From Nitrososphaerota archaeon (GTDB lineage Archaea > Thermoproteota > Nitrososphaeria > Nitrososphaerales > CADDZS01), in contig JAJPHP010000017.1 in NCBI GenBank assembly GCA_021325255.1, forward strand, positions 1 to 40,132: 40,132 nt of DNA, given 5' to 3'. Position numbers and translations under genes: made by a program. The notes beneath the pieces are model-generated. The model had not been told where the DNA came from. It made no database searches and worked only from the letters and a program-made list of their open reading frames with translations. Shown piece after piece: positions 263-31,910 of the stretch. The first letter of the stretch is position 1. Each line of letters starts with the position of its first letter.

Positions 263-1459
263 TTGACTTTGATGCCAGAGAATTCCCCAGTTATAGTCAG
301 CGCCGCCCGCACTCCGATTGGAAAGTTCGGGAAGACGCTCAGAGATTACTCCGCCACCAAGCTCGGCGCGCTGGTCGTCCGCGAAGTGCTGAATCGAGCG
401 CCCGGAATCCAAGATTCCGATGTACACGAAGTAATTATGGGGAATGTCATTTCCGCTGGATTGGGCCAAAATCCAGCAAGGCAGGCTGCTCTCTATGGCG
501 GGCTTCCAGCAGAAGTTGGAGCCACGACGGAGAACAAGGTTTGCGGTTCGGGACTCAAAGCCATCATGTTCGCGGCACAGGCGATCAAGGCCGGAGACGC
601 GGACTGCCTTATCGCAGGTGGTATGGAAAGTATGAGCAACGCTCCATACATTCAAAAGAACCTGCGCTGGGGTCTAAAGTTTGGAGACTCGAAGGTACAC
701 GACGCTATGCTCTTGGACGGGTTATGGGATGTATACAACGATTTTCACATGGGGATTACGGGAGAGATAGTCGCTCAAAGACACAAGATAACTAGAGAAG
801 AGGCCGATAGTTTCGCTCTCGAATCGTACAAACGTGCTGCATCAGCGGCAAAGTCGGGGATGTTCAAAGCCGAGATGTTGCCCATCGAGGTAAGACTTCC
901 CAATGGCCTGCTAGGAATGCTCGAACTGGACGAGTGCATAAGAGAAGATACGACTCTCGAAGGATTGCGCGCCCTGAAGCCAGTATTTCAGCCGAATGGC
1001 GTCCTCACTGCAGGAAACTCTTCGCAGTTAAGCGACGGAGCTGCGGCGGTACTTGTAACTTCTGAGGCCAAAGCAAACTCTCGCAAGGCGGAAATTCTCG
1101 CGCGTATCACTGCATATGCTCAGGCCGCTGTAAAACCCGAGCTCGTAATGGAGGCTCCAATACCTGCATGCAAGAACGTTTTGAAAAAAGCAAACCTCAG
1201 CGTCTCAGACATTGATCTTGTGGATCACAATGAAGCTTATTCTACTGCCAGCATCGCGGTTCGCGATGAACTCTCCATTCCTTATGACAAATTCAATGTC
1301 AACGGCGGTGCAATCGCTCTCGGGCATCCTATCGGAGCTTCAGGAGCGAGGCTTGTCGCCACCATGATCTACGCTTTGAAACAACGAAAGCTCCATCGCG
1401 GGCTCGTTACCCTCTGTCTGGGTGGAGGCGAGGCTGTCTCAATGATCTTGGAAGTCTGA
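263..1459 (+). CDS. Acetyl-CoA C-acyltransferase (thiolase)
   Basis: Thiolase II/degradative-type enzyme of 398 residues, a usual family length. It catalyses CoA-dependent cleavage of 3-ketoacyl-CoA, the last step of beta-oxidation, or the reverse condensation. The nucleophilic cysteine is in NKVCGSGLKA (C94). The catalytic histidine is in GHPIGASG (H355), and the second cysteine is in CLGGGEA (C385). A GGTGAT element at 245-250, which matches the archaeal anti-SD, sits about 12 bases before the TTG at 263. That favours TTG over the in-frame ATG at 272. An acyl-CoA dehydrogenase gene follows after 86 bases on the same strand. Direction in vivo (degradation or synthesis) cannot be read from sequence, but the surrounding genes point to degradation. 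Confidence 0.93.
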   Translation: MTLMPENSPVIVSAARTPIGKFGKTLRDYSATKLGALVVREVLNRAPGIQDSDVHEVIMGNVISAGLGQNPARQAALYGGLPAEVGATTENKVCGSGLKAIMFAAQAIKAGDADCLIAGGMESMSNAPYIQKNLRWGLKFGDSKVHDAMLLDGLWDVYNDFHMGITGEIVAQRHKITREEADSFALESYKRAASAAKSGMFKAEMLPIEVRLPNGLLGMLELDECIREDTTLEGLRALKPVFQPNGVLTAGNSSQLSDGAAAVLVTSEAKANSRKAEILARITAYAQAAVKPELVMEAPIPACKNVLKKANLSVSDIDLVDHNEAYSTASIAVRDELSIPYDKFNVNGGAIALGHPIGASGARLVATMIYALKQRKLHRGLVTLCLGGGEAVSMILEV

Positions 1460-1545
1460 GAGAAAGAGATGTGCTGAGAAGATTACAATGACCGAATGCG
1501 AGGTCGTTCGATTAGTTTTCTAGAATCTTAAGGTCAGGTTTTTTC

Positions 1546-2676
1546 TTGTACGCCATAACTCCTGAGCAGCAGTTACTCAGAGATACAGTACGGGAATTTG
1601 CGGAAAGGGAGATAGTGCCCGAAGCCTCGAGGATGGACAGAGAATCTAGCCTCTCTTCTACTGTTTTGAGCAAACTGCCATCTCTCGGCCTTTTCGGCGT
1701 TACCGTTCCTACGGAGTCTGGCGGGTCCGGTACGGATTTTCTAACGCTGATAATCGTATCAGAGGAGCTCTCCAAGGCAAGCGGCTCACTTGGCGCATGT
1801 GTCTCGTTGCACAATGCTGTGGTCTGCGAAGCCTTCAGGATGAGCTCAAACGCCGAGATGCGAGAGTCGATTCTGCCTAAGCTCTGCTCTGGTGCTCTTG
1901 GAGCCTTTTCGTTCAGCAACGAGTCTTCTCAACTAACATGCACGTTCGATGGATCTGAGATAATTGTAGACGGCTCAGCCGAGTACGTGGTCTCTGCTGC
2001 CGACGCTGGAATATTCGTATTCTCCGCTAGATTGAGTGGAGAAAAATCGGGGAAAAACGTACTGTTTGGATTTGCAAGAAGCGATGTGAACGCAAATTCG
2101 AATTTCTCCGTTACCCAGCCAAAGAAGATGCTCGGCATGAGAGCATCCGGAACTGCTGGGGTCTCTTTCAGAAGACTCAAATTGCCTGCTAGTTCAGTTC
2201 TCGTGGATCCCATCGAGAGCACCCAATTCATTGAAAAACTGAAAGTGCGAGCAAGGTTCGCCATAGCTGCTCAAGCCCTCGGCATCGCGCAGGCCTCCGT
2301 AGATTCCGCGATTGCGTATGCGAATGAACGCAAGCAGTTCAACACAAAGATTGGAAGTTTCTACGCCATAAAGGACTACATCGCGAGCGACCTAATTTCG
2401 ATCGAGACCGCAAGAGCCTTCCTCTACTCTGCCGTCTCCCGCCTCGACATTAATGCGCGAGAAAACAATCTGAGAGAGAGCGCAATCGCGAAAGTCACTG
2501 CTTCCGACTGTGCAGTGAGTTCTGCAAGACATGCCGTAAGAGTGCACGGTGGTTACGGGTTCTTGAGAGATTATCCAGTTGAACGATTCGCGCGCGACGC
2601 GAGGTTCACTCAAATATTTGAGGTGTCCAACGAAACGCTGAAATCAGAGATCGCGGTCTCGCAGCTTAGTCCTTAG
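1546..2676 (+). CDS. Acyl-CoA dehydrogenase
   Basis: FAD-dependent acyl-CoA dehydrogenase of 376 residues. It introduces the trans-2 double bond in the first oxidation step and would pass electrons to ETF. The C-terminal domain has the HGGYGFLRDYPVERFARDAR motif region. The catalytic base appears kept as E359 in IFEVSNET, where most relatives have YEGT; this loop is unusual. The start is TTG at 1546, preceded by AGGTCAGG at 1530-1537; no ATG is available near the N-terminus. The stop overlaps the convergent acyl-CoA ligase gene by four bases. It is a paralogue of the enzyme at 9.5 kb, with a different active-site loop, so chain-length or branching preference may differ (inference). Confidence 0.9.
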   Translation: MYAITPEQQLLRDTVREFAEREIVPEASRMDRESSLSSTVLSKLPSLGLFGVTVPTESGGSGTDFLTLIIVSEELSKASGSLGACVSLHNAVVCEAFRMSSNAEMRESILPKLCSGALGAFSFSNESSQLTCTFDGSEIIVDGSAEYVVSAADAGIFVFSARLSGEKSGKNVLFGFARSDVNANSNFSVTQPKKMLGMRASGTAGVSFRRLKLPASSVLVDPIESTQFIEKLKVRARFAIAAQALGIAQASVDSAIAYANERKQFNTKIGSFYAIKDYIASDLISIETARAFLYSAVSRLDINARENNLRESAIAKVTASDCAVSSARHAVRVHGGYGFLRDYPVERFARDARFTQIFEVSNETLKSEIAVSQLSP

Positions 2677-4418
2677 TCTTCGGCGACTCTGTTCTTTTGG
2701 AGGGGTTGACCTCCAGTTTTTTCTTCATCACTTTCTCTCAATTTTCTTCGAAGCACTTTGCCCACAAGTGTCTTTGGCAGCGAATCTCTGAACTCAACAA
2801 TCCTCGGCACTTTGTAGGCCGCGATTCTCTCTTTGCAGAAAGATCGGATTGCTTCTTCATCTACGTCTCTATGGCCGTCTTTCAGCACTACGTATGCCTT
2901 TACAGTTTCAATCCTGTATGGGTCTTTCATACCAACTACCGCGGCTTCCTTGACATCCGGATGAGCATACAAAATTTCTTCCACTTCTCTCGGCCAGACT
3001 TTGAACCCTGAAGCGTCTATCATGTCCTTCTTCCTGTCGACGATGTAGAAGTAACCATCATCATCCATTTTTGCAATGTCTCCAGTCAGGAGCCATCCTT
3101 CTTCTCTGAAGACGAGCTTTGTCTCTTCAGGTTTGTTCCAGTAGCCTCTCATTACCTGAGGGCCTTTGACTGCTAGTTCTCCTGTCTCGCCAATTGGGAG
3201 ATCTCTTGTCCCTGTCTCCAAATCGACTATCTTTGCATCCGTGTCAGGTAATGGAATTCCGATAGAGCCCGTCTTTACCACGACTGCGTCGCCAAATGGA
3301 TTGCAGTGAGTTACGGGACTAGCTTCAGTGAGACCGTATCCTTCAACCAAGTTCCCTCCTGTGATCTTGTTGAATTGGCGTTGCACTTCGGATGGCAGAG
3401 GAGCGGCCCCTGAAAGACATCTTCTAACAGTCTCGAGCGAATACTTTGAAATCTGTGGATGATTTATGAGCGCCACATACATCGTAGAAACGCCCGGAAA
3501 GATGGAGATCTTTTCTTTCTGGAGTATCTCGAGAACTTCGTCTACTTTGAACTGTGGAAGAAGGAAGATCTCCTGTGCCGCATGGATTGGCGAGTTCATG
3601 GCGTTGGTCAAACCGTAGATGTGGAAGAATGGAATTACCGCCAGCACCCGTTCATTTTCAGAAGTCAGCCCGCTCCAAATCGAAGATACCACTGCATTCG
3701 ATACCAAATTGAAATGCGTAAGCATTGCACCCTTTGGCGTGCCGGTCGTACCGCCCGTATACTGAAGTGTAGCGACATCCTCCTTTGGATTGGTCTGAGG
3801 AGTGCCGCCCGGACCACCGGCCCTCGCAGAATTTGCCAAGAATTGCTCAAGGTTTATTGTGTTTGGTCTCGCTATGGTCTTGATCTTCTTGACCGGGCCC
3901 GCAAGCATCCTCTTGTGCGGAGGAAGAAAATCCGTGATCGAGGTTACGAAAACGTGCTTCATTTTCGGCAGGTGCCCGCGACATTTTTCAAACTCGGCAA
4001 AGAAGTCGTTCGGCTGGATGAAATTGTTTAGCAAAATTGCCGCCTCGCATTCTGAGTCCAAGAGTTGGAATTCGAGCTCTCTGCACTTGTAAAGTGGATT
4101 GCAGGGTACAACAGTCGCACCAGATTTCAGTATCCCATAGAAACATAAGACGAACTGTGGAATGTTGGGTAATATCAGAGCAACCCTTGAGCCCCTTCCA
4201 ATTCCTAGTGCGGAGAGGCCGCTGGCGAAGTTCTCGGAGAGGTGATTTAATTCGGCATAAGTGATCTTCCTGCCTTGAAAATTAAGGGCAGGTCGGTTGG
4301 GGAACTTGCGCGCGCTCTCTTCCAACAAGGCGTGTACTGGTATCACTGGGTAATCGATGGTAGCAGGTACCCCTTTAGGGTAAAACCTAAGCCATGGTCG
4401 CGCAGTTATGTTGAGCAT
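2673..4418 (-). CDS. Long-chain acyl-CoA synthetase (AMP-forming)
   Basis: ANL-superfamily adenylating enzyme of 581 residues that activates fatty acids to acyl-CoA at the cost of ATP to AMP. Visible motifs in order: phosphate loop YTGGTTGTPKG (220-230), aromatic/acyl pocket segment EGYGLTEASP (359-368), TGDIA aspartate motif (445-449), and hinge DRKKDMI (461-467). The adenylation lysine is in PKTLVGKVLRRK (K554). The ATG start at 4418 gives the normal family N-terminus. It lies convergent to the acyl-CoA dehydrogenase and divergent from the SCP2-type thiolase, so it feeds the surrounding beta-oxidation genes. The class is certain; fatty-acid chain length is not. Confidence 0.93.
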   Translation of the reverse strand: MLNITARPWLRFYPKGVPATIDYPVIPVHALLEESARKFPNRPALNFQGRKITYAELNHLSENFASGLSALGIGRGSRVALILPNIPQFVLCFYGILKSGATVVPCNPLYKCRELEFQLLDSECEAAILLNNFIQPNDFFAEFEKCRGHLPKMKHVFVTSITDFLPPHKRMLAGPVKKIKTIARPNTINLEQFLANSARAGGPGGTPQTNPKEDVATLQYTGGTTGTPKGAMLTHFNLVSNAVVSSIWSGLTSENERVLAVIPFFHIYGLTNAMNSPIHAAQEIFLLPQFKVDEVLEILQKEKISIFPGVSTMYVALINHPQISKYSLETVRRCLSGAAPLPSEVQRQFNKITGGNLVEGYGLTEASPVTHCNPFGDAVVVKTGSIGIPLPDTDAKIVDLETGTRDLPIGETGELAVKGPQVMRGYWNKPEETKLVFREEGWLLTGDIAKMDDDGYFYIVDRKKDMIDASGFKVWPREVEEILYAHPDVKEAAVVGMKDPYRIETVKAYVVLKDGHRDVDEEAIRSFCKERIAAYKVPRIVEFRDSLPKTLVGKVLRRKLRESDEEKTGGQPLQKNRVAED

Positions 4419-4590
4419 ATTATCTGTCGCGCGCGCTCTCTCTGAATACCTTTTCTTTTCTGCGTCACTTCTTTGGAGGATGAGTCCTTTATTTTAACGT
4501 TGATCGACACCTTCCTCTAATTGAGTAAGTCGAAGTGGGGAAAACACCAATCAATTCTTATTAGTTAGAAAACTGACTTTAGTGTCAGGT

Positions 4591-5754
4591 ATGCGCAGGG
4601 TATACGTTCTCGGGGCTGGCATTACAAAGTACGGGAAATCGCCATTTTCAGCAAGAGAACTTGCTCTTGAGGCCTCAAGGAAAGCCATTCTCAGCGCCCA
4701 GCTATCGCCGAGCGAAATTCAGGCTGGTTTTGTCGCAAACGCGTTCTCTCTTTCTGAGAAGCAGGGTCACTTGGGACCGATAGTAATGTCGGGCCTCGGG
4801 ATTCCCGATGCTCCCGCTTCAACGATCGAGTCTGCATGTGCGAGCGGAGCCTCAGCTGTCCGAGAAGCTTGGATTAACATCGGAGCTGGCATTTACGATT
4901 GTATGCTGGTCGTGGGAGTTGAAAAAGTGAGCCAGCTCGATACGATTACGGCGACAACTTACTTCTCCTTCGGATCAGACTATATCTTCGAAGGTGCTTG
5001 CGGTGCGTCGTTTCCCGGACTTTACGGAGCTCTTGCACGCGCTCACATGACCAAGTACGGAACCACCGAACTTCAGCTCGCAAACGTAGCCGTCAAAAAT
5101 CACGAAAATGCTCTCTTGAATCCAAACGCGCATCTGCACAAAAAGATTTCAGTCGAAGATGTACTGCACTCGCCGGTTGTAGCGAGCCCACTCAAATTAT
5201 TTGACTCCTGCCCCTTCTCAGATGGAGCTGCCGCTGCAGTACTATGTAGCGAAGATTACCTCAGGCTAAAAGGTAGAACTCTTTCAGAGAAGATTCTCAT
5301 CCGAGGATCAGGTAGAGCTGGGGGGACGGGCGCGCTCCACCAACGAAAAGATCTTACTACGCTCGGCGCGGCAGTTCTCGCTGGCCGCGAGGCCTTCAAT
5401 CGGGCTGGTCTCTCTTACAAAGATATTGATTTCGCTGAGGTCCACGATTGCTTTACAATTGCAGAGCTAGTAGCCGAGGAAGACCTCGGCTTCTTTCCAC
5501 GTGGGGATGCTGCAAAGATGACCGAACAGGGAGTAACAAAGATAGGCGGAGACCTGCCAATCAATCCATCCGGTGGACTCAAGGCAAAGGGGCATCCGGT
5601 TGGGGCGACAGGTGTGGGCCAGGTCGTTGAGATTTTTGAGCAGCTCAACGGTATAGCTGGCGAAAGGCAAGTGAAGGATTCGAGGATTGGTCTGACGCAC
5701 AACGTAGGTGCGACCGGTGGAAGCTGCGGCGTTCATATTTTCGAACTGACTTGA
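4591..5754 (+). CDS. SCP2-type thiolase (acetyl-CoA acetyltransferase)
   Basis: Thiolase of the SCP2/archaeal type. With the ATG at 4591 it has 387 residues; an in-frame GTG lies nine bases upstream. Catalytic residues, counted from that GTG: C86 in ESACASGA, H338 in AKGHPVGATG and C382 near the C-terminus in GGSCGVH. A TTATTAG box near 4557-4564 sits about 25-30 bases before the ATG, as expected for a leaderless transcript. The next gene encodes a DUF35 protein directly downstream. In archaea this thiolase class works as a complex with a DUF35 zinc-ribbon/OB protein, in mevalonate synthesis together with HMG-CoA synthase. Here no HMG-CoA synthase is adjacent, and beta-oxidation genes surround the pair, so thiolysis or acetoacetyl-CoA metabolism are both possible. 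Confidence 0.9.
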   Translation: MRRVYVLGAGITKYGKSPFSARELALEASRKAILSAQLSPSEIQAGFVANAFSLSEKQGHLGPIVMSGLGIPDAPASTIESACASGASAVREAWINIGAGIYDCMLVVGVEKVSQLDTITATTYFSFGSDYIFEGACGASFPGLYGALARAHMTKYGTTELQLANVAVKNHENALLNPNAHLHKKISVEDVLHSPVVASPLKLFDSCPFSDGAAAAVLCSEDYLRLKGRTLSEKILIRGSGRAGGTGALHQRKDLTTLGAAVLAGREAFNRAGLSYKDIDFAEVHDCFTIAELVAEEDLGFFPRGDAAKMTEQGVTKIGGDLPINPSGGLKAKGHPVGATGVGQVVEIFEQLNGIAGERQVKDSRIGLTHNVGATGGSCGVHIFELT

Positions 5755-5783
5755 AATCTTCTAGAGTGCTCGGAGGGTGTTTT

Positions 5784-6200
5784 TTGAAATTGGCTGAAAG
5801 TGCCAAGGTTGAAGAGAGAGGAGCGCTGACTGAGGGTCAAGTGACAATCAAGAGTTTTCAGGAGGGCATACGCGAAGGAGTCATTAGGGGGTACTTGTGC
5901 TCTAAATGCGGCGCAAAGTACGTCGACATACTGGCGTTTTGTCCGGTGTGCCATAGTTCCGACCTGAAGGAGACAGATCTTCGAGGCGAAGGCAAAGTGC
6001 TCACTTATACTATACAATTTGTAGCTCCTGAACAGTTCATGAACGAAGTCCCGTATGCTTGGGTGATAGTCGAGCTAGACGAGGGGCCGAAGATCACCGG
6101 ATGGATCCCATTTGTGCGGAGTCCCTCCGATCTCCCAATCGGGCAAAGGGTGAGACTGAGGAAATCCTACCTCCCCGGCGTCGTATTTGAAAAGATTTAG
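5784..6200 (+). CDS. DUF35 OB-fold/zinc-ribbon partner of thiolase
   Basis: Small acyl-CoA-binding scaffold protein of the DUF35 (ChsH2-like) family. The N-terminal rubredoxin-like zinc ribbon is visible as CSKCG...CPVCH. It is followed by an OB-fold-like half with DLRGEGKVLTYTIQF and a conserved Pro-Tyr (VPYAWVIVELDEG). The frame is open from 5751, overlapping the thiolase stop, but the best start is TTG at 5784. That start is preceded by GGAGGGTG (5772-5779) and gives 138 residues. Members of this family bridge thiolase and partner enzymes to channel acyl-CoA intermediates. The tight spacing to the thiolase supports a complex. Confidence 0.88.
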   Translation: MKLAESAKVEERGALTEGQVTIKSFQEGIREGVIRGYLCSKCGAKYVDILAFCPVCHSSDLKETDLRGEGKVLTYTIQFVAPEQFMNEVPYAWVIVELDEGPKITGWIPFVRSPSDLPIGQRVRLRKSYLPGVVFEKI

Positions 6201-6233
6201 AATATTAGCGCTGAGTGCTTGATTTTCGCTTTG

Positions 6234-7211
6234 ATGTTTGTAAGAAAGGTAGGCGTAGTGGGGGCTGGCGCTATGGGCAGCCAGATCGCCGAAGTACTGG
6301 CCCTAAATGGATACGACGTCTACATTAGGGACATTTCGAAGGCATTCTTGGATAAGGGGATGGCAACAGTAAAGGCCGACCTCGATGCACTCTTAAAGTT
6401 CCACAACACGAAAGCTGATCGGGAAATCCAGAGGATCACGGAACAGGATGGCGTGGAACTCTCAGAAGTTCAAAAGAGCGCGATCAGGGCAAGACTGAAA
6501 CCGTCCTATGATGAGAAAAGGATTTCCGAGATTCTGTTGAGGATGCACCCCACGGAAGAGTTCTCGCCTTTCAAGGAAGTTGACCTTGTAGTCGAGGCAA
6601 TTGTAGAGGACATGGATGAGAAAAAGAAAGTATTCAAGGAGCTTGACGCCCTAGTTCCGAAAAGTGTCATCCTAGCCTCAAACACTTCAACGCTTTCGAT
6701 AACCGAGATCGCGTCTGCTACAAGGAGGCGGGGGAAAATCATAGGTACTCACTTCTTCAATCCTCCGATAACGCTTCCGCTTGTCGAAGTTATTCCAGGA
6801 CTTGAGACGAGCGAAGAAACGATTTCAGACATGCTCGAGTTTGTGTCGGCTCTAAGGAATCACAGATACCCAATGTTGCCAGTCAAGGTGAAAGAAGTTC
6901 CAGGCTTCCTAGTTAACAGAATCCTCGGAGCCATGCTTCATGAAGCATACGCACTATATGAAGAAGGAGTAGCGTCGATGAGAGACATAGATCAAGCGAT
7001 GAAAGCAGGTGCTGGGATGCCCATGGGGCCGTTTGAACTTTCCGATTTGATCGGGATCGACGTGCTATATCACACTGAACAGTCGATAAGGGAAATGGAG
7101 GGTGGGTTCCTCTCGCCCAGACCAACCCAGATAATCAGAAAGATGTTCAATGCTGGAAGATACGGTAAGAAGGTCGGGAGGGGATTCTACGAATATTCGC
7201 CTTCCTCTTGA
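6234..7211 (+). CDS. 3-hydroxyacyl-CoA dehydrogenase (long form)
   Basis: NAD-dependent L-3-hydroxyacyl-CoA dehydrogenase, third step of beta-oxidation. The Rossmann loop is GAGAMG. The catalytic histidine region is THFFNPP, the domain junction PGFLVNR, and the dimerisation domain ends with GRYGKKVGRGFYEY. The start is taken as the ATG at 6234 (325 residues); a TTG lies 15 bases upstream. An AATATTA box at 6201-6207 fits a leaderless promoter. The protein is about 30-40 residues longer than the usual 280-295. The extra length is a charged helical insertion between the nucleotide-binding motif and the DLVVEA motif, roughly residues 55-100. The paralogue at 12.4 kb lacks it. Confidence 0.9.
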   Translation: MFVRKVGVVGAGAMGSQIAEVLALNGYDVYIRDISKAFLDKGMATVKADLDALLKFHNTKADREIQRITEQDGVELSEVQKSAIRARLKPSYDEKRISEILLRMHPTEEFSPFKEVDLVVEAIVEDMDEKKKVFKELDALVPKSVILASNTSTLSITEIASATRRRGKIIGTHFFNPPITLPLVEVIPGLETSEETISDMLEFVSALRNHRYPMLPVKVKEVPGFLVNRILGAMLHEAYALYEEGVASMRDIDQAMKAGAGMPMGPFELSDLIGIDVLYHTEQSIREMEGGFLSPRPTQIIRKMFNAGRYGKKVGRGFYEYSPSS

Positions 7212-7292
7212 CATCAACACACTTAAACGGCACGAAGGCTAATCTTTACTTCTCTCTCTGTGGTTTGGTAAGCGGAGAATGAGTAAGAGACT

Positions 7293-8264
7293 ATGCACAA
7301 GAGATTGGTGATAATTGGCTCAGGCCCTGCTGGGTATACCGCCGCAATTTATGCGGCACGTGCGAACTTGGAACCGCTTGTCTTGGCTGGTGTTCAATCT
7401 GGAGGACAGTTGATGATTACTTCCGACGTTGAAAACTACCCTGGATTTCCTGAAGGAATACAAGGCCCCGAGCTTATGGAAAAGTTCCGAAAGCAGGCAG
7501 AACGGTTTGGCGCGACTATAATTGATAGCGATGCAACACGGGTTGATTTTGGAAAAAGGCCATTCGTAATCGAGAGCGGGGAGGAGAGGTACACCGCTGA
7601 TTCTGTCATTGTTGCCACAGGTGCCTCCGCAAAGTGGCTCGGTCTAGAGTCGGAGTTAATGCGCAGGGGTAAGGGGGTGTCTGCCTGCGCCACATGCGAT
7701 GCATTCTTCTTCAGGAACAAGGATGTCTTTGTAGTCGGCGGCGGTGATACCGCGATGGAGGAAGCCACTTTTCTGACCAAATTTGCAAACCACGTCACCG
7801 TCATACATCGGCGCGACAAACTCCGCGCATCTAAGATAATGCAGGAAAAGGCAAGATCCAACCCGAAGATCTCTTTTATCTGGAATTCAGCTGTCAAGGA
7901 GGTATTGGGAGATAATCACGTAGACGCCCTTGAGATTCAGAACGTTGTCGACGGGTCTCTGACACACGTCAAGGCGGACGGCCTCTTCATAGCGATAGGG
8001 CACGAACCTCTAACTTCACTTTTCAAAGGGCAGCTAGAGATGGACGCCAAGGGGTACATCAAAGTGCATGATTTCACAAAGACAAACATTGAAGGTGTCT
8101 TTGCTGCTGGCGACGTTCAGGATCCGCGATACAGACAAGCTATAACTGCTGCTGGATCGGGTTGCCAGGCCGCGCTCGATGCAGAGAAGTATTTGGAAGA
8201 ATGTTGCCCGGAGTCAATAAGTGCTTACAAGGTAGTCGAGAAACCAACTTCACAGCAACATTAG
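7293..8264 (+). CDS. trxB: Thioredoxin-disulfide reductase
   Basis: Low-molecular-weight thioredoxin reductase of 323 residues, a flavoprotein that passes NAD(P)H electrons to thioredoxin-like proteins in the cytoplasm. The FAD Rossmann motif is GSGPAGYTAAIYAAR at the N-terminus. The redox pair is C132-A-T-C135. The nucleotide-binding GGGDTAMEEA motif and the closing GVFAAGDVQDPRYRQ motif are present. HRRDKLRAS after the second Rossmann motif is typical of NADPH-binding members. The ATG at 7293 gives the normal N-terminus. It stands between beta-oxidation genes but with its own 80-base upstream region, so it is probably a separate unit. No thioredoxin gene is adjacent. Confidence 0.93.
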   Translation: MHKRLVIIGSGPAGYTAAIYAARANLEPLVLAGVQSGGQLMITSDVENYPGFPEGIQGPELMEKFRKQAERFGATIIDSDATRVDFGKRPFVIESGEERYTADSVIVATGASAKWLGLESELMRRGKGVSACATCDAFFFRNKDVFVVGGGDTAMEEATFLTKFANHVTVIHRRDKLRASKIMQEKARSNPKISFIWNSAVKEVLGDNHVDALEIQNVVDGSLTHVKADGLFIAIGHEPLTSLFKGQLEMDAKGYIKVHDFTKTNIEGVFAAGDVQDPRYRQAITAAGSGCQAALDAEKYLEECCPESISAYKVVEKPTSQQH

Positions 8265-8627
8265 CCCCCTCATTCTACGAATAACTGCAGCGAAATTGCT
8301 ATACCGCCGTTTCTCGGGTCTATTCTAGTGATAATCTCACTTTACATTTTTGAAATCGTAAGTTGAAACCGAGGCACGCGCAGAAGAAGAAGACGACAAC
8401 CCGCGAGAGCCATGTTTGAAAAAGGGGAATCCAGGGATTATGTAGTGCAGTATTTCTCGCTGATCTCCATCACGAGTTCAGTCCGGTTTTTCTGGAAGCC
8501 TACGCACGAAAATGCGCTGATCGGGATCTCTCCCACAGTCCGCACTTCAAATGACAATGCTTAAAATCAATGGAAGGGTCTTCTTTCAAGACCGAAGAAA
8601 AACTAACGAGTGTGTCAGTTTTAATTC
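8265..8627. other. Intergenic region between trxB and enoyl-CoA hydratase
   Basis: A 363-base gap. The only thing noted is a 50-codon open frame at 8412-8564. No tRNA or strong palindrome was seen. Confidence 0.5.
8412..8564 (+). CDS. Possible small ORF, 50 residues
   Basis: ATG-initiated frame ending in TAA inside the trxB to enoyl-CoA hydratase gap. The peptide begins MFEKGESRDYVVQYFSL and is not recognised. It has a hydrophobic-aromatic central part and no cysteine motif or clear membrane span. There is no convincing ribosome-binding site. It may be chance. Confidence 0.2.
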   Translation: MFEKGESRDYVVQYFSLISITSSVRFFWKPTHENALIGISPTVRTSNDNA

Positions 8628-9413
8628 TTGACAGGCGAGTATGTAAAGACAAAGCAGGAAGAAAGTGCTCTCCTGATTACTCTCGATAATCCTCCGGTGA
8701 ACGCCCTAAATTTAAAAATGCTGGAGGAATTGCAGGAAGCGGTCACCGTGGCAAACCAGTCCTCGGAGATCAGAGGGATCGTAATCACTGGATCAGGAGC
8801 AAATGCGTTTTGCGCGGGTGCCGACCTCAAGATAATGCAAAATGTAGAGCCAGAGGATGCCTCAAAGATTGCCGGGATGGGACAGCGCGCGTTTTCATCC
8901 CTTGAAGATTCTCCAAAGCCTGTGATAGCGGCCGTGAATGGTGTCGCAATAGGCGCAGGCAATGAACTTGCGCTCGCCTGTGATCTTAGATTTGTTTCAG
9001 ACCGGGCGAGATTTGGCAATACTGAGGTAAATCTGGGGCTGATTCCTGCATTTGGTGGAACTCAAAGACTCAGCAGACTGGTTGGGAAAGCGAAATCCAA
9101 GGAGCTCATCTTCTCTGGACAAATAATTAGTGCGCAAGAAGCCTATAGGATTGGATTGGTAAACAAAGTGGTACCAGATGGCGAGGAAGTTAGGGCGTCT
9201 GTAGATTACATCAGAATGCTCGCAGCAAAGTGCTCGCCACTAGCAGTATCACAGGCAAAGATTGCTATTGACAAGGGGTTGCAAAAGGCTTCTCTCCAGG
9301 AAGCTCTTGAATGCGAGGTGGACGCGATCAAAGTACTCTCGCAGAGTGAGGACCTGAAAGAAGGAATACTGGCATTTCTCGAAAAGAGGCCTCCTAGGTT
9401 TGCGGGGAAGTAA
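8628..9413 (+). CDS. Enoyl-CoA hydratase (crotonase family)
   Basis: Crotonase-fold enzyme of 261 residues, adding water to trans-2-enoyl-CoA in the second step of beta-oxidation. The oxyanion-hole segment is FCAGADLK (61-68). Both glutamates of true hydratases are present: E113 in GNELALACD and E133 in NTEVNLGLIP, followed by the GGTQRL motif. This separates it from isomerases or decarboxylases that lack one of them. The only in-frame start near the expected N-terminus is TTG at 8628. An AT-rich stretch (TTTTAAT) precedes it closely. The stop is followed by an acyl-CoA dehydrogenase on the same strand after 85-127 bases, depending on its start. Confidence 0.93.
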   Translation: MTGEYVKTKQEESALLITLDNPPVNALNLKMLEELQEAVTVANQSSEIRGIVITGSGANAFCAGADLKIMQNVEPEDASKIAGMGQRAFSSLEDSPKPVIAAVNGVAIGAGNELALACDLRFVSDRARFGNTEVNLGLIPAFGGTQRLSRLVGKAKSKELIFSGQIISAQEAYRIGLVNKVVPDGEEVRASVDYIRMLAAKCSPLAVSQAKIAIDKGLQKASLQEALECEVDAIKVLSQSEDLKEGILAFLEKRPPRFAGK

Positions 9414-9540
9414 TGAGGGGCACTTACATGCTTCCTTTGGTCTGGAATGCACTCTCAAGTAATACTCTGATTGATACCGAGGCCGACGAAAAGAAAACTT
9501 GAGGCCTGACCCTTACAGCGGCCGGTCAAAACGCCAAAGA

Positions 9541-10728
9541 ATGTACGATTATAGACTTGCCGAGGAATATGAACTACTTCGCTCTGCACTCTGCGAATTT
9601 CTGCAGTGCGAAATTGCCGGTAGTGCGGAGTACTATGACAAGGCGGAGCAGTTTCCGGAAGAAAACATTGCAAAGTTCGCAAAGCGCGGGTACCTTGGGA
9701 TTCCGATCCCAGAAAAGTACGAAGGTGCGGAACTTGGAGAGCTGGGCTACGGTGTTGCAATCCAAGAGATAAGCAAGGTCTGTTCAGCGCACGGAACAAT
9801 TATCGGAGCGCACACGGGGCTCTGTGAGGTTCCGATATACCTCTTTGGAAACACTGATCAAAGATCTCAATACTTGCCAGATCTGGCATCTGGCAGGAAG
9901 CTGGGCGCTTTCTGCCTGACCGAACCCGGCGCAGGAAGTGATGCTGCAAATATACGGACAACGGCGACTAGGGATGGCGATAACTACATTCTCAACGGTA
10001 CAAAACAATTCATCACGAACGGAGACAGGGCAGATACCATAGTTGTCTTCGCAGCAAACGATCTCTCACTCGGCGCATTCGGTGGGATAACCGCGTTCAT
10101 CGTTGAGCGAAAGAAATTTGGTGGAATAACGACCTCGAAGGTTGAGAAGAAGATGGGAATCAGGGCATCCTCCACGGCTCAGGTTGTCTTTGAGGATTGC
10201 CACGTACCGAAGGAGAATGTACTTGGCAAGTTCGGGCTTGGCTTCCTTGTCGCGCTGACTGCCCTTGATGGTGGAAGGGCTTCACTCTCAGCGGGCGCTG
10301 TTGGAGGAGCTGAGATGGCCCTTGAATTCATGGTTGACTGGGTAGAGCAGAAGGAAGAACTGGCTAGGGATGAAGCCGTTCAGCGAATGATAGCAGATAC
10401 TGTGATTGATGCACACACTGCGAGGCTAACGAGTTATCAATCGCTTGCAGAGGTCGATTCATATTTCTCTAGGCTTGCAAACGGTGTGAAGATTCCGAGA
10501 GAGGAGAGAGAGGCAATTTCTAGGCACACCGCGATAGCAAAAGCGTACTGTTCCGAGGTCGCAAGTCGAAGCCTCGAAAGAGCACTACAAGTGCTCGGAA
10601 TGCACGGATATACCGAGGGTTTGGGGCTGGAGAGGGGGTATCGCGATTCGTTCATCTCTGAAATCTACGAAGGCACAAACGATATTCAACGATTAATCAT
10701 CGCTCGGGACATTCTTGGGCTGACATAG
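9541..10728 (+). CDS. Acyl-CoA dehydrogenase
   Basis: Second acyl-CoA dehydrogenase, 395 residues from the ATG at 9541; the frame is open back to a TTG at 9499. It has the canonical flavin and substrate motifs CLTEPGAGSDA and FITNG. The catalytic glutamate is in IYEGTNDIQR near the C-terminus (E391 counted from the TTG). The helix before it, LGMHGYTEGLGLERGYRD, is typical. It has a more standard active site than the enzyme at 1.5 kb and is close to short/medium- or branched-chain dehydrogenases. It would reduce the ETF pair encoded immediately downstream (inference from neighbourhood). Confidence 0.93.
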   Translation: MYDYRLAEEYELLRSALCEFLQCEIAGSAEYYDKAEQFPEENIAKFAKRGYLGIPIPEKYEGAELGELGYGVAIQEISKVCSAHGTIIGAHTGLCEVPIYLFGNTDQRSQYLPDLASGRKLGAFCLTEPGAGSDAANIRTTATRDGDNYILNGTKQFITNGDRADTIVVFAANDLSLGAFGGITAFIVERKKFGGITTSKVEKKMGIRASSTAQVVFEDCHVPKENVLGKFGLGFLVALTALDGGRASLSAGAVGGAEMALEFMVDWVEQKEELARDEAVQRMIADTVIDAHTARLTSYQSLAEVDSYFSRLANGVKIPREEREAISRHTAIAKAYCSEVASRSLERALQVLGMHGYTEGLGLERGYRDSFISEIYEGTNDIQRLIIARDILGLT

Positions 10729-10764
10729 AGTGGGTTTTTGCACACAAAATGTGCTGATCTTCAA

Positions 10765-11442
10765 ATGGCATCACCTGGCCGCCCGCGAGTGCTTGTCTAT
10801 GTGCAGGCGCTACCGACTTCAGTTGAGGTCGATCTATCTGGGAGAAATTCTGAGCCCAATTTTGAAAGATGCTTCAAGAATTCAGATTTTGTCATGGCAC
10901 ACTCGAGCAAGTTAGCTATTTCCAAGGCGCTGGAGTTAAGCGGAGCAGAAGTTGTTGCAGTAGGCTTCACTCCAATCCTTCGCGAGGCCCTAGTTCAGGG
11001 AGCATCGAGTGCAATACCCGTTCCGCTTTGCTCCGATCCTATAGATCAGTCGGCATCATTTCCACAAGAGGCTCAGAGTCAAATACTAATTGGCGAATGC
11101 TTGGATGGTTTCTTCACAGGAGCGAGTTTTGCCGGCGTTCTCGCCCTGAGACTCGGATTTTCGCTTGAGGTGTGGGACGGTGATAGCTTGGCGGAGCACA
11201 GGCCTAGCAATGTCACGCTGGTCAAAGACAATTGTGGAAGGCCAAAAATGCCTGACATTCGACGTATCAGAATGGCTGTAAGCCATTCTTTCACTTCGCA
11301 AGGGATTAGTGGTAAGTTCAGAGTGTCAAAGAAGGAGCAACGTGACGAGCGAAAAAGAAGTAGCGAGGTATTGATCGGAAATCTTGAGGAACAGTCGGTG
11401 GCACTTCGAAAGCGCCTGAGGAGAGCTCTTGGGGCAGTCTGA
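10765..11442 (+). CDS. Divergent electron-transfer flavoprotein beta subunit
   Basis: EtfB-like protein, about 225 residues from the ATG at 10765; a TTG at 10738 is in frame upstream. Similarity is in the overall pattern: N-terminal RVLVYVQALPTS strand, an ALELSGAEVVAVG segment, ILIGECLDG strand-turn, and a C-terminal GRPKMPDIRRIRMA stretch matching the arginine-rich EtfB tail. The nucleotide-binding loop, DGDTAQVGP in ordinary EtfB, is replaced by LDGFFTGASFAG. AMP binding is therefore doubtful. It lies just after an acyl-CoA dehydrogenase and just before an EtfA-like frame, the classical order. The function is probably electron transfer from acyl-CoA dehydrogenases, but with a changed or lost cofactor. 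ETF assignment is good; activity is uncertain. Confidence 0.7.
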   Translation: MASPGRPRVLVYVQALPTSVEVDLSGRNSEPNFERCFKNSDFVMAHSSKLAISKALELSGAEVVAVGFTPILREALVQGASSAIPVPLCSDPIDQSASFPQEAQSQILIGECLDGFFTGASFAGVLALRLGFSLEVWDGDSLAEHRPSNVTLVKDNCGRPKMPDIRRIRMAVSHSFTSQGISGKFRVSKKEQRDERKRSSEVLIGNLEEQSVALRKRLRRALGAV

Positions 11443-11471
11443 AAGGACAATTCGATAAGCTTACGAGGGAG

Positions 11472-12379
11472 ATGACATCATCCTGATAGCAGTTCTTGCA
11501 GAGTCTGAAGGGGAGAAACTCTTAGGCAAAGCTCGGGAGCTCGCTGATTATCAGGGATATCATGTTCTGGCCTTTTGCTCCGAGAATGAGGAGTCGGAGA
11601 AGGCGAAGAGGTGCGTTTCTCTTGGCGCCGACGAGGTTCGCGTATTCGACTTCGGCGCCGATTGTTCTCGTTGGGTTCAGGCTATATCGGAGGCAATCCA
11701 GACCGAGCCAACGCTACGGATGGTCATGTTCCCTTCGTCCTTGATCGGTAACTTCATCCTGGGAGCTGTCTACGCTTCGACACCATCCAAGATTGGATCT
11801 GTAATGGATCGCGCTGATTACGTCGGCGAGAGCACTGCTGGGAAGACGATCCCCTCATGCGGTGCGGATGTCGACTCTCTTCCCGCGGAAAGGAAGGTCT
11901 GCCTCTGGTCAGTCAAGCTTTCCTCGATCGTGGAGCCTTTCCAGGACTCTATGAGAAAAGGCAAAATCGTGCGCGTATCAAGCCCTCTCCCAGGAAAAGT
12001 TCAGAGGGGGGCAGCGAAGCAATGGCGCCTCAAAGAAAATTGGAGAACGTCCCGAGAATCTGCTTCCCAACTAGTGATACTGCTTGGCAGCGAAGAACAC
12101 CCAACGCTAGACCAAAAGGAGCGACTAAACCCAAAACTGATTAATGATCTTGCAACCAAACTCGACGCTTTGATTCTGCAAGAAGCCGATTCCGCCGGTC
12201 GCGTGATTTACGGCCCTTGCCTTGCAATAGGAGTGGCATCGCAGATTCGAGGATTGCCCTATTTCCAGGGCGATCTAATTTCGGTCTGCTCGGACCGGTC
12301 GGCACCGATCGTAAAGATCTCGGATCTTGCGATCATATCATCGGAGATCAATCGATTGCTCGAAACGCTGCTTGATTAG
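11472..12379 (+). CDS. Divergent ETF alpha subunit, start unclear
   Basis: EtfA-like protein of about 300 residues. The reading frame is open from 11459 and encodes [20 protein letters not shown] followed by [13 protein letters not shown], the usual EtfA N-terminal domain. It has no ATG, GTG or TTG until 11720, well inside the domain. An ATG at 11472 would fit exactly if one base were added after it; as written it meets a stop after four codons. The C-terminal FAD domain is degraded: the SR..VD.GW...QVGQTG region is missing. Only the final [12 protein letters not shown] and [16 protein letters not shown] strands match. Cofactor loss or change is likely. It overlaps the convergent 3-hydroxyacyl-CoA dehydrogenase gene by four bases. 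Confidence 0.65.
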
Positions 12380-13269
12380 GAATAATCATAGAACCCCTTT
12401 CCTGTCTTTCTTCCAAGGTAGCCAGCTCTTACCATCTTGCGAAGCAACGGACTTGCCCTGTACTTCGGGTCTTGATATTCCCTGTATAGAACCTCCATGA
12501 CATCGAGTAGGACGTCCAGGCCCACAAAGTCTGCTAGTTCAAGGGGGCCCATCGGATGGTTCATTCCAAGTTTCATCACGGTGTCGATATCTTCTTTCGA
12601 TGCAATTCCTTCCTCTAGGGCAAAGATAGCTTCGTTTATCATCGGACACAGCACTCTGTTTGAGATAAAGCCAGGAGAGTCAGTGACGACAACTGGGGTC
12701 TTTCCCAGTTTCAGCCCGACGGACCGAATCGCCTCGATTGTCATTTCCGAGGTCTGTATTGCGCGAACGATTTCGATTAGCTTCATTACCGGTACGGGAT
12801 TGAAGAAGTGCATTCCCGCGACACGTCTGGAATTTGACACCAAACCAGCGAGCTGGGTGACCGGAATTGAAGAAGTATTCGTAGCTAGGATTGCATCTGC
12901 TGAGCATATCTTGCCAAGCTTTTTGAAAATGTCGCTCTTGATCTCTATCTTTTCGAGGGCCGCTTCGACCACGAGCTCCCGATCAGAAAAACCAGAAAGG
13001 TCGGGACATGGAGCGACCCTTGAGAGGGTTTCGTCTCTTTGTGCTTCTGAAAGCCTCCCTTTCGAAACGGAGCGATCAAGGTTGTTTTTGATTCTCTTTA
13101 TACCGCCATTTATGAAATCCAGGCTAACGTCATTCATTTTCACGTTGAAACCAGACTGAGCAAAGACCTGAGCTATGCCATGACCCATCGTGCCAGCCCC
13201 TATCACTCCGACTTTGCTTATACTCTCAAGATTTGCACCCTTATTCGAAGTCCCTGCCGTCATGGTCAT
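12376..13269 (-). CDS. 3-hydroxybutyryl-CoA dehydrogenase
   Basis: NAD(P)-dependent 3-hydroxyacyl-CoA dehydrogenase of 297 residues. Motifs: [11 protein letters not shown]ossmann loop, LVVEAALE, catalytic histidine in [20 protein letters not shown], and [16 protein letters not shown], which is typical of the short-chain 3-hydroxybutyryl-CoA type. It ends with [11 protein letters not shown]. The ATG at 13269 is fixed by a perfect AAGGAGGA five bases upstream. That is an unusually strong signal here, as most neighbours use weak signals or none. It is the second such enzyme in the cluster and lacks the insertion of the first. It is convergent with the EtfA-like gene, so it forms a separate transcription unit. 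Confidence 0.94.
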
Positions 13270-27877: not shown

Positions 27878-29758
27878 TTACAACTCCTTTAACCGGTTTG
27901 CAGAATTCGATTCATCGTTCTGATTGTTTGACACGTCCAGATTTGCACCGAGCAAACCTGGAGCTGGATTGAGGGGATCGCCGCTAACATCACTCTCGCT
28001 CTGAGGCGAAGCTATCGTCGAAAGTGCAGGCGTCAGATTTACTGCGTTTTCAGGGACGTTTCCTTGTGCACCTTCGGTAGCCCTTGTCACTGGCGTGGGG
28101 ACCGACACGGGTACCTGCGGAGTCACCGAGACCTCGGCTGGCACGATGATAGACGGCCCTGAAAGTGTCTTGATAATATTCCAGATGAAAGGTATCTGAG
28201 CCGCGGCTGCGACAAACGCAAAGAAGAATGCGCCCAGCAGGTAAGCATGATAGTCAAGTGTTTGGGTGAATGGGAGACTTGCCAATATGGGATTGTACTC
28301 TCGTCTTGGCACGCCGAGGTAGCCCATCGCAGCAAAGTCAAATGCCAATCCGAAGCCGCCAACACAGGTGCCCCAAAAGTGAATCTCTCCAAGCGTCTTG
28401 CTGTACCACTGTTTGTTGGAAATCTCTGGAAGGATCCAGTAAAGCACTCCAAAGGCTGCAAGCACGATTCCGTCGAGTGCGTTGAAGTGGAAGTGTGAGA
28501 CGATGATGTACGTATTGTGCTCGTACAAGTCGAGCGCGTTGTTTCCGTTCTCGACGCCCATGACGCCTCCAACGATCCATCCGATAATGCTCGCGAAGAG
28601 GAACTTTGCAGTCAGGGTCCAGTTGTACTTCGATCTCCAGATAAGTGCGAACAAAGTAAAGACGGAGATCCCCGAGGCGAATCCGATTGACATCGACATG
28701 TTCTGAGCCACAAACTGGAGGAGGTAGGGCTGAGAGGTGTCGATGAAGAGGTGGTGACTATAGACTCCTACTCCGGTGATCAGGAGTATGGGCCAGGGTG
28801 CCTTTGCCCATCTCATGCTTGAAAAGTTCCTATTGGCAAAGATTGGGACGAGCGTGTAATACATCCCGATCAGCGGAAAGAAGGCAAAGTAGACGATTGG
28901 GTGGTAGTTGATCCAGAGGAAGTTCTTTGCTACGAGGTTATTCAAAAAGCCTGGCTGACTCATCGAAGTCCAAAAACCGTCGACAAGCAAGGTGAAGAAT
29001 GGTGGCGCTGAAATTACCATATCGAGCGTCGTGACCATTGCCGCGATCACTGCGACTGGATACCCGAGAACTCGCGAGCGGACGGCCTTTGGCATGTATG
29101 CGTCAAATCCAATCGAAGCCGCAAACTTGGCTGACATTGAGTGGTTCATTCTCGGCGCTTCATTGTACTCGTCCTTGTACTTGCCCGAGAAAGCGCTCCC
29201 GAAGATGTTGTATGCAAAGACGAAGAGCGAAAGATTTGCGAGAATCATTCCAGCAAAGAAGATTGCTGCTTGAATCAGGCCCCAGGGAGCAGAGCCAGCG
29301 GGTCCGCCGTGGAAGGGCAAAGGCCAGAGGAAGTACCAGCCCGGACCAAAGCCCCAGAAGATGGAGAACCAAACCATGTAGAAACCGATGGCGAAGGAGT
29401 AGAAGACTATGGGGAGCAGCCTCTCGCTGAACAGTTTGCGCTTCATGTACTTTGGAAAAACGTATGAGCATAGTCCGTACGCGAAGGGGAACTGCCATCC
29501 GACGAACATCCCGAGCCCGTGAGCTGTGAGGAGCTGACCGAATACAGTTGCGCTGCCTAGAGGCCCGATGTTTGAAGCCGCGCCCCCCTGGTCTGTCCTC
29601 ATGAAAAGCGCGAGAGTCCCAGCAATCATAAAGTTGAGGAATGAAAGATAGAGCAGTCTCCTGACCCATTTCTTCGTGTATGGGGTGAGAGGGTCTGCGG
29701 CGCCCGTTGCTACAACGGGTTCATGGTCGATTTCCGAAACAGTTGAAGCAGAACTCAA
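27878..29758 (-). CDS. coxA: Haem-copper oxidase subunit I (B-type)
   Basis: 626 residues, about twelve membrane spans. Haem and copper ligands are all visible: H80 (TAHGLGMF), CuB ligands H286 with cross-link tyrosine Y290 in NYHPIVYF, H335-H336 in VYSHHLF, and haem ligands H422 and H424 in SHFHFNALDG. The HPIVYF motif, rather than HPEVY, places it in the B (ba3-like) family, which lacks the D channel. Those enzymes tend to have high oxygen affinity. The last 80 or so residues (from about 545) are a Pro/Ser/Thr/Asn-rich tail without membrane segments, unusual for the family. It lies between coxB and the cupredoxin gene. No subunit III gene is present. Confidence 0.95.
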   Translation of the reverse strand: MSSASTVSEIDHEPVVATGAADPLTPYTKKWVRRLLYLSFLNFMIAGTLALFMRTDQGGAASNIGPLGSATVFGQLLTAHGLGMFVGWQFPFAYGLCSYVFPKYMKRKLFSERLLPIVFYSFAIGFYMVWFSIFWGFGPGWYFLWPLPFHGGPAGSAPWGLIQAAIFFAGMILANLSLFVFAYNIFGSAFSGKYKDEYNEAPRMNHSMSAKFAASIGFDAYMPKAVRSRVLGYPVAVIAAMVTTLDMVISAPPFFTLLVDGFWTSMSQPGFLNNLVAKNFLWINYHPIVYFAFFPLIGMYYTLVPIFANRNFSSMRWAKAPWPILLITGVGVYSHHLFIDTSQPYLLQFVAQNMSMSIGFASGISVFTLFALIWRSKYNWTLTAKFLFASIIGWIVGGVMGVENGNNALDLYEHNTYIIVSHFHFNALDGIVLAAFGVLYWILPEISNKQWYSKTLGEIHFWGTCVGGFGLAFDFAAMGYLGVPRREYNPILASLPFTQTLDYHAYLLGAFFFAFVAAAAQIPFIWNIIKTLSGPSIIVPAEVSVTPQVPVSVPTPVTRATEGAQGNVPENAVNLTPALSTIASPQSESDVSGDPLNPAPGLLGANLDVSNNQNDESNSANRLKEL

Positions 29759-30511: not shown

Positions 30512-30682
30512 TCAGCTAAGAATCGCGTTTGAACGTGAGGAAAACAAAGAAAAAAAAGTGGCATTGCTTTTTGTGGGCAAGCTATATCCAATCTTAGTAT
30601 GGAAAAATTCTTGGAATCTATTCTTCATCTGCGAATGAGTTGAGAACGATATGCGGGAGATATCAAGAGGAATTCGCGATAG

Positions 30683-30690
30683 TTATTTAT
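30683..30690 (+). promoter_or_regulatory. TATA box of the tRNA-Tyr gene
   Basis: TTATTTAT, 27-34 bases before the first base of the tRNA. Standard spacing for an archaeal promoter that starts at or just before the mature 5' end. Confidence 0.6.
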
Positions 30691-30747
30691 GCGAGATTCG
30701 GAAGCTTTGTGCTCGACCCGCGGTAGCTCAGCCTGGTAGAGCTTCCG

Positions 30748-30816
30748 ACCTCGAACTCACAGGATGCACACTTTCCATCATCGGGAATTGCTGCGAATGT
30801 GCAGTCAAGGGGAGAT
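30748..30816 (+). other. tRNA intron 1, after position 30
   Basis: 69 nt, in the anticodon stem. The central helix CTTC (30742-30745) pairs with GGAG (30811-30814), including one G-U pair. Bulges are CGA (30746-30748) and ATG (30815-30817), cut after the second base of each. Inside, TGCACA (30765-30770) pairs with TGTGCA (30798-30803). The outer exon helix is short (two pairs), so this is the weakest of the three motifs. Confidence 0.8.
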
Positions 30817-30823
30817 GCTGTAG

Positions 30824-30911
30824 AGATCTTTGGCTCCGCTTGCACGATGCGCGTAACAGCGAGAAAATGTATTCGGCGCTGATCCCGTTCCAGCTTATCA
30901 GGCTTACAGAA
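30824..30911 (+). other. tRNA intron 2, canonical 37/38 site
   Basis: 88 nt. CTGT (30818-30821) pairs with ACAG (30906-30909). Bulges are AGA (30822-30824) and AAA (30910-30912). The exon side is closed by the anticodon stem. Standard archaeal position. Confidence 0.88.
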
Positions 30912-30933
30912 ACCGGAGTGTCGTCGGTTCAAT

Positions 30934-30976
30934 AGGTGTGCGGTGCAAAAAATTGTTGCAATCGCGCTCTTGAAAG
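30934..30976 (+). other. tRNA intron 3, T loop after position 59
   Basis: 43 nt. TTCA (30928-30931) pairs with TGAA (30971-30974). Bulges are ATA (30932-30934) and AGT (30975-30977), with the T stem as outer helix. The intron itself folds with GTGCG/CGCGC and TGCAA/TTGCA. Splicing restores a 7-base T loop. Confidence 0.88.
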
Positions 30977-30991
30977 TCCGACCCGCGGGAC

Positions 30992-31007
30992 TTCTTTTTC
31001 TCTTTCT
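30992..31007 (+). terminator. T-rich terminator after tRNA-Tyr
   Basis: TTCTTTTTCTCTTTCT directly after the discriminator base, a typical archaeal oligo-T end. It also overlaps the 3' flank of the convergent nitrilase gene. Confidence 0.6.
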
Positions 31008-31022
31008 ATATTGTCCTGTCTT

Positions 31023-31910
31023 TCAGCTTCGGGAGGCGATGGCGTAATTTTTCATTTGCTCTGTCTCGACTGATCCTTTTGCGCTTTCTGAATAGAACTC
31101 TGTGCGTCGGTCCTCGAGTAGATTGTTCATCGATGTTACGTTCTTGTTTCTTGACAAGGAAAGATCGAGTTTTGCGCTCTTCGCTACGGTCTCAGTTGCA
31201 GTTGCTGTAGCGATCTTTGTCATCAAGGGGGTTGATATTTGGCTGCGACCCGTGAAACGGAAATTGTCTTTCTCTCCTCTGTTTTCCCTGCCAACTCTGT
31301 TCGCGGTGATGACGAAGACTTTGTTTTCGAATGCTCGAACCAGCGTGCCAGCTTGTGCCTTACCAGGCAAGACCAAGTTCGACGGGTGACAGATGACATC
31401 GGCACCTTTTAGCATCACTTCTCGGGATGCTTCTGGGAAGAACCAATCAAAGCATATCAGGATGCCAATTCTGCAACCCAAAGTCTCGAGATCGTAGACT
31501 TTGAAACCGGATTCGGAACGATCAAACCAAAGCTTCTCTCGGTAGAACAGGTGCATCTTTCTGAAGGTGCCAAGAATTTTTCCCCTCTCTATGATGACAG
31601 AGGAGTTGTAGACCTTTCCTCTATCCTTCTCTGCCAGCCCGGCTACGAGTGCACATTTTCTCTTCTCTGAGAAGGAGCGTAGCTTCTCGACCGAGGGGCC
31701 ATCAGAGAGCGATTCAGAAAGTCTCTGCGATTCTTCCTTTGAAGTGAAAGCATAGCCTGTGTTGCAGAGTTCCGGAAACACGTACAGGTCTGAGCTCACT
31801 TTGGAAGCCAGCTTGATCGCTGAGTCGATATTCTCGTCGTTGTTTCCAAAATTCGGACGAGTCTGAACAAATGCGCCTCGAATCCATTTGTTATGACTAG
31901 ACTTGCTCAA
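31023..31910 (-). CDS. Carbon-nitrogen hydrolase (nitrilase superfamily)
   Basis: 295 residues with the full Glu-Lys-Cys triad of the superfamily: E47 in FPELCNTGY, K118 in FRKMHLF and C153 in ICFDWFFPE. It hydrolyses a C-N bond, most often an amide, in the cytoplasm. The sequence is of the amidase/N-carbamoyl type rather than true nitrilase, judging by the general pattern. The exact substrate is not readable. The last 45 residues are polar and poorly conserved. TTG at 31910 is the start (SKSSHNKW follows). It is convergent with the tRNA-Tyr gene. No transporter or pathway partner is adjacent. Confidence 0.88.
   Translation of the reverse strand: MSKSSHNKWIRGAFVQTRPNFGNNDENIDSAIKLASKVSSDLYVFPELCNTGYAFTSKEESQRLSESLSDGPSVEKLRSFSEKRKCALVAGLAEKDRGKVYNSSVIIERGKILGTFRKMHLFYREKLWFDRSESGFKVYDLETLGCRIGILICFDWFFPEASREVMLKGADVICHPSNLVLPGKAQAGTLVRAFENKVFVITANRVGRENRGEKDNFRFTGRSQISTPLMTKIATATATETVAKSAKLDLSLSRNKNVTSMNNLLEDRRTEFYSESAKGSVETEQMKNYAIASRS

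Follow-up and report, generated by a model that had tools for sequence, protein, structure and literature searches.

Does a stretch of archaeal DNA in which no tRNA can be recognised hold a working tRNA gene, and if so, how many pieces is that gene in? The question is raised by positions 30717-30990 (+ strand) of the 40,132-nt stretch analysed here, hereafter the window, for which a preliminary description had proposed a tRNA-Tyr gene split by three introns, with an anticodon exon of only 7 nt. By removing 30748-30816, 30824-30911 and 30934-30976, which prove exact to the base, we obtained a 74-nt tRNA-Tyr(GTA) with a full cloverleaf, all stems paired, a GUA anticodon, a C1-G72 pair and A73. 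The four exons measure 31 + 7 + 22 + 14 nt, and the introns, of 69, 88 and 43 nt, lie at Sprinzl positions 30/31, 37/38 and 59/60, respectively. Taking all observations together, this is almost certainly a single functional tRNA-Tyr(GUA) gene with three archaeal BHB introns, whose transcript, judging from its sequence and that of its relatives, would be cut by EndA and joined by a ligase.

Anatomy of the locus

The features of the locus are listed below; the family is the group of nine related genomes introduced in the next section.

30675-30691, + strand: predicted promoter with a TATA-like box about 26 nt upstream, CGCGATAGTTATTTATG; a like element lies upstream of eight family genes and of L018, the copy in the ninth genome.
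30717-30747, + strand: exon 1 (positions 1-30), 31 nt; the same in 9/9 family genomes save for one base in L003 and L006.
30748-30816, + strand: intron 1, site 30/31, 69 nt; central helix CUUC:GGAG, bulges CG|A and AU|G; found in 9/9 family genomes with 30-85 nt.
30817-30823, + strand: exon 2 (positions 31-37), GCUGUAG, with the GUA anticodon, 7 nt; unchanged in 9/9 family genomes.
30824-30911, + strand: intron 2, canonical site 37/38, 88 nt; central helix CUGU:ACAG, bulges AG|A..AA|A; core conserved in the family.
30912-30933, + strand: exon 3 (positions 38-59), 22 nt.
30934-30976, + strand: intron 3, in the T loop, site 59/60, 43 nt; central helix UUCA:UGAA, bulges AU|A..AG|U; found in 4/9 family genomes.
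30977-30990, + strand: exon 4 (positions 60-73), 14 nt.
30991-31006, + strand: T-rich stretch 3' of the gene, putative transcription terminator.

Each of the three junctions has the 4-bp helix between 3-base bulges that had been described: the central helix is paired at 4/4 positions, with one U-G in that of intron 1, and each strand carries a 3-nt bulge. The outer helix of the intron 1 motif is imperfect (4/6 pairs), which we count against our reading. Removal of the introns restores a cloverleaf with a sensible anticodon, as expected of archaeal BHB introns, and there are three of them in this one gene. The exons are collinear, on one strand and at one locus, so the gene is neither a split nor a permuted tRNA.

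The genomic copy had been called unrecognisable as a tRNA, and this is borne out. ARAGORN reports tRNA-Tyr(gta) when the spliced form is supplied within its flanks, but no tRNA either in the unspliced 500 bases or in the whole window. At gathering thresholds Rfam found no tRNA and no C/D family in the unspliced window; in E-value mode, 30600-31100 gave four weak matches far under threshold (E 1.1-4.8), none of them to a tRNA and two of them to CD-box sRNA models on the minus strand. Since these two general tools miss the gene, some tRNA genes of these archaea may go uncounted. Matches to the Rfam tRNA model number at least 20, 7 and at least 17 in the family genomes G004, G006 and G008, while G138 has 43 and G010 has 32; G019, G064 and G078 have 29, 25 and 16. 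The low counts in G004, G006 and G008 hint at many interrupted tRNA genes, but incomplete assemblies could also lower them, as could the limit of 150 candidates scored in G004 and G008.

A family of nine related genomes

In the window, the tRNA-Tyr gene adjoins a COX1 gene (27878-29758, - strand), and a protein search with COX1 led to nine loci of 67-75% identity, with 76% as the best value in the tree alignment. Record titles name Thaumarchaeota or Nitrososphaerales in six of the nine cases, an archaeon in two and a bacterium in one; these nearest loci do not place the host in Thermoproteales and agree with the thaumarchaeal source proposed earlier. The tRNA-Tyr gene lies beside COX1 in 8/9 loci, while the copy of the ninth genome (G008) is on another contig (L018). 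The same nine genomes make up the genome family of G006. Its COX1, its gene order and the tRNA introns it has in common with these genomes lead us to infer that the window is a member of the family.

One member, L003, is SubAcS9-71, which figures in the list of Heterotrophic Terrestrial Thaumarchaeota with 74.3% completeness in the available text of PMC10640624. The window itself carries many fatty-acid oxidation genes at 263-13269 (thiolases, acyl-CoA dehydrogenases, 3-hydroxyacyl-CoA dehydrogenases and an AMP-binding ligase), which fit a heterotrophic archaeon like those of that group. The source archaeon probably came from soil.

Introns at both 30/31 and 37/38 are present in 9/9 relatives, so that the 7-nt anticodon exon is common to all. 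The 59/60 intron is present in L001, L002, L003 and L006 and absent from L004, L005, L007, L009 and G008 (L018). Across the window and the nine relatives, the central helix has 4/4 pairs in 24/25 junctions; the lone exception, L004 at 37/38 with 3/4 pairs, was counted against our reading. Intron lengths in the same ten genes range over 30-85 nt (30/31), 56-88 nt (37/38) and 21-43 nt (59/60), and the exons barely vary. Such steady exons beside drifting introns are what one would expect if the introns are spliced out of the transcript.

On a COX1 tree of nine rows, from which L009 was omitted with only 115 residues matched, the three-intron label needs two changes, of which well-supported branches force only one. 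The T stem reads GUCGG/CCGAC in 5/5 genes with the 59/60 intron and GCAGG/CCUGC in 5/5 genes without it, counting the window and its nine relatives. We set aside a general link between T-stem sequence and this intron, which breaks outside the family.

Could intron 2 have a second role?

Intron 2 has a distinct core that is conserved in the family (GATC..GGCTCC..GGCGCTGATC..GGC). It is conceivable, and in our judgement unlikely, that this intron is also a guide or binding RNA, for instance for Psi35 of the same tRNA, in place of a missing aPus7/TruD. First, profile and protein searches gave no match to TruD/aPus7 (PF01142) in 9/9 family genomes, all nine of which have TruB_N (PF01509), which we take to be Cbf5. 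TruD is present in 10/11 other genomes tested in the order, and the exception, G013, is also without TruB_N. Second, the 37/38 introns outside the family share features that speak for such a role. In an H/ACA guide, two guide arms flank U35-A36 directly beside the upper stem, with the ACA placed 14-16 nt downstream of the pocket. Distinct 37/38 introns of 43-50 nt carry a CAG[CT]-type motif in 52/52 cases. Among the 52 distinct non-family introns, a covarying hairpin is paired at 7/7 positions in 36, at 6 in 14 and at 5 in 2 (shuffled mean 4.6), and a conserved CAGC is complementary to G31-G34. Counted from the C of CAGC, the ACA follows at 15 nt in 41/52 and at 8, 13 or 14 nt in 11, the ACAG being part of the splice helix too. 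Third, there are precedents: as far as the available text of PMC6313347 goes, Psi35 of archaeal tRNA-Tyr is made by TruD/aPus7 and a Psi35 guide RNA is reported in Sulfolobus and Aeropyrum, and a tRNA-Trp intron acting as a C/D guide is described in partly available sources.

Several observations weigh against this role. There is no usable left arm, the complementary GGUC being inside the covarying hairpin and reading GAUC in the window's family. The CAGC..ACA part occurs in TruD-bearing genomes as well, and its ACAG is already accounted for by the splice motif. Moreover, there was no Rfam match above threshold, and the fold of the window's intron 2 is not more stable than those of its shuffles (z 0.27; 120/200 shuffles at least as stable).

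A search of intron 2 for H/ACA and C/D guide features led to no consistent two-armed guide: judged by eye, the right arm of an H/ACA guide (CAGC) is present and the left arm absent or hairpin-paired. A bolder idea has tRNA-Tyr as an intron hot spot with up to five introns, in which the family's canonical intron replaces the lost aPus7/TruD and couples its own removal to anticodon modification; we regard it as a long shot.

A working gene or a relic?

It is very doubtful that the locus is a tRNA-Tyr pseudogene, silent or in decay, while another copy in the genome does the work. Its exon bases are intact and its stems paired, the exons are conserved in the relatives while the introns drift, and the promoter-like element is retained. 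An intact tRNA-Tyr gene elsewhere, which the preliminary description had named as grounds for abandoning its proposal, did not turn up in the relatives: a pattern made of the first 26 nt (up to 2 mismatches) has exactly one match in each of the nine genomes, a count that covers these nine incomplete assemblies.

We also scored the gene by dynamic-programming alignment to a mature tRNA-Tyr template, with introns carrying a cost and central-helix pairs a credit. The window gene scored 129.0, whereas 300 dinucleotide shuffles retaining the entire exon 1 averaged 72.7 and peaked at 85.5, and 100 full shuffles averaged 7.1 and peaked at 21.0; these comparisons are partly circular, the template having been derived from the window gene. 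The independent and stronger evidence is, to our reading, the conservation of exons and junctions in the relatives. That chance parsing or faulty assembly produced the three introns can be practically dismissed, for although an exon search with free gaps is flexible and its template came from the same gene, the shuffles score far below it and nine other assemblies have the same exons and junction sites, with two or three introns each.

A proposed path of splicing

The observations thus favour a functional gene with three BHB introns. Its anatomy, its junction motifs, the conservation of exons and intron positions and the EndA genes of the relatives are seen directly, and we infer its transcription, its splicing, the order of removal and the part of the ligase. 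Going by the known behaviour of the family, the tRNA-splicing endonuclease EndA, probably a two-subunit enzyme, would cleave the primary transcript at every junction, and an archaeal tRNA ligase would join the exons. Intron 1 would probably leave ahead of intron 2, whose outer helix is the anticodon stem, since this stem forms only once positions 30 and 31 are joined: 1/6 of its pairs are possible in the unspliced RNA and 6/6 after removal of intron 1. Before that step, the anticodon exon could pair with the D-arm in the intron 1 motif. Removal of intron 3 would be independent of the others, because the T-stem gives its outer helix locally. Stepwise removal of neighbouring introns is described by the tRNAscan-SE authors in the available part of PMC8450103.

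At least one EndA match is present in 8/9 family genomes and two in 7/9; G003 has a single match and G001 has none, both of which we count against our reading. In G006, the sole genome in which the pair was inspected, the protein L116 has as its best PDB matches the archaeal splicing endonucleases 2cv8, 3p1z, 3ajv and 2zyz. It keeps Y, H and K, presumably the catalytic residues of EndA, and its paralogue L131 is without the H at that column. On their sequences, the two proteins fit a two-subunit enzyme. The paired matches in seven relatives would suit the heteromeric EndA that the preliminary description proposed to look for, and the counts in G003 and G001 would not. As for the broad-specificity endonuclease that it had deduced from the intron positions, the paired matches and the G006 pair, with one catalytic and one H-less member, lend it partial support, but the window gene does not demand such an enzyme, because all three of its junctions are strict motifs.

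Intron number across the class

We then parsed tRNA-Tyr genes more widely, using a template with a degenerate T loop. The first-26-nt pattern matched 265/400 genomes, other tRNAs included; an intron upstream of position 25 or a different acceptor stem hides a gene from it. From the matches listed for the order we chose 85 genes, window included, which form an uneven sample. We excluded sequences that do not begin with CC (other tRNAs; L019, L029 and L030) and duplicates over the initial 200 nt (L054, L059, L060 and loci fetched twice); two entries each come from G077 and G033, and L069, cut by a contig end, is scored with 0 introns. By this count, 4 genes have four introns, 36 have three, 23 have two, 21 have one and 1 is the gene cut by the contig end. 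The 7-nt exon, made by introns at 30/31 and 37/38, occurs in 28/85 parsed genes. Within this uneven sample, the gene organisation is therefore not unusual for its lineage, contrary to what had been supposed, the more so as multiple noncanonical introns in Thaumarchaeota are already in print in the available text of PMC8450103. The window gene belongs to a known kind, the triple-intron archaeal tRNA, and is ordinary among its parsed relatives.

Nineteen further loci, none of them among the 85, were also parsed; L176 and L188 gave no parse, and an ORF check on L139 found nothing. A pattern for two T-arm introns has matches in 12/400 genomes of the class. By parse, four introns are present in eight of these twelve (G038, G012, G028, G013, G051, G058, G044 and G074) and five in the other four, in L153, L157, L158 and L161 (genomes G420, G019, G078 and G064, respectively), many of these assemblies being small or fragmented. 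The central helix has 4/4 pairs at all five junctions of L153, L158 and L161, and 3/4 at two junctions of L157 and at the 59/60 junction of L079, L080 and L081. Scores of the five-intron genes are 108-113, compared to shuffle maxima of 28.5 (60 full shuffles per gene) and 42.0 (60 with the first nine bases kept). ARAGORN reports tRNA-Tyr(gta) on 10/10 spliced four- and five-intron forms (G012 and G028 left out). Intron sites met overall are 9/10, 15/16, 22/23, 30/31, 37/38, 53/54 and 59/60. Rare sites appear in a few parses at 8/9, 35/36, 56/57 and 58/59, where the parsed boundary may be off: the true site could be 59/60 for 56/57 and 58/59, 37/38 for 35/36, and 9/10 for the 8/9 site of L157.

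Hence, going by their sequences, distant relatives of the window gene appear to bear up to five introns, above the reported three. In the available texts, Thermoproteales tRNAs have three introns at most (PMC4033280), archaeal tRNA genes up to three (PMC8450103), and as many as three are reported elsewhere (PMC3293823). A search of full-text literature, which left subscription journals mostly outside, gave no paper on archaeal tRNA genes with four, five or otherwise more than three introns, judging by titles and the opening of abstracts. If confirmed, the four- and five-intron relatives would lift the reported maximum. The tRNA-Tyr family is a natural series of one to five introns that varies between related genomes and is useful for studying the number, order and origin of tRNA introns. 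Specialists may be interested in this series up to five introns and in the missing pseudouridine synthase.

Comparison with known systems

The closest parallel is found in the multi-intron tRNAs of Thermoproteales (Pyrobaculum and relatives), which, as the preliminary description had stated, include triple-intron genes: as far as the available texts of PMC4033280 and PMC8450103 go, they have up to three BHB introns at canonical and noncanonical sites, as does the window gene. The differences are that the window comes from another lineage, that we followed one isotype, tRNA-Tyr, and that its more distant relatives give four- and five-intron parses.

In phylum and intron type, the noncanonical tRNA introns reported for Thaumarchaeota with tRNAscan-SE 2.0 are also like those of the window; the available part of PMC8450103 gives 107 of them, notes that they can be multiple and does not name the window's lineage. 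The maximum per archaeal tRNA gene is three in the same part of the text, whereas the window's distant relatives give parses with up to five.

The C/D-guide intron of tRNA-Trp, known to us from partial sources, resembles intron 2 as a conserved archaeal tRNA intron that possibly does more than being removed. In contrast to it, the tRNA-Tyr locus has no C/D family at the Rfam threshold, and intron 2 yielded no consistent two-armed guide.

Finally, the split and permuted archaeal tRNAs, as presented in the available text of PMC3218864, have the junction motif and the endonuclease family in common with the window gene, whose exons, unlike theirs, stand in order, on one strand and at one locus.
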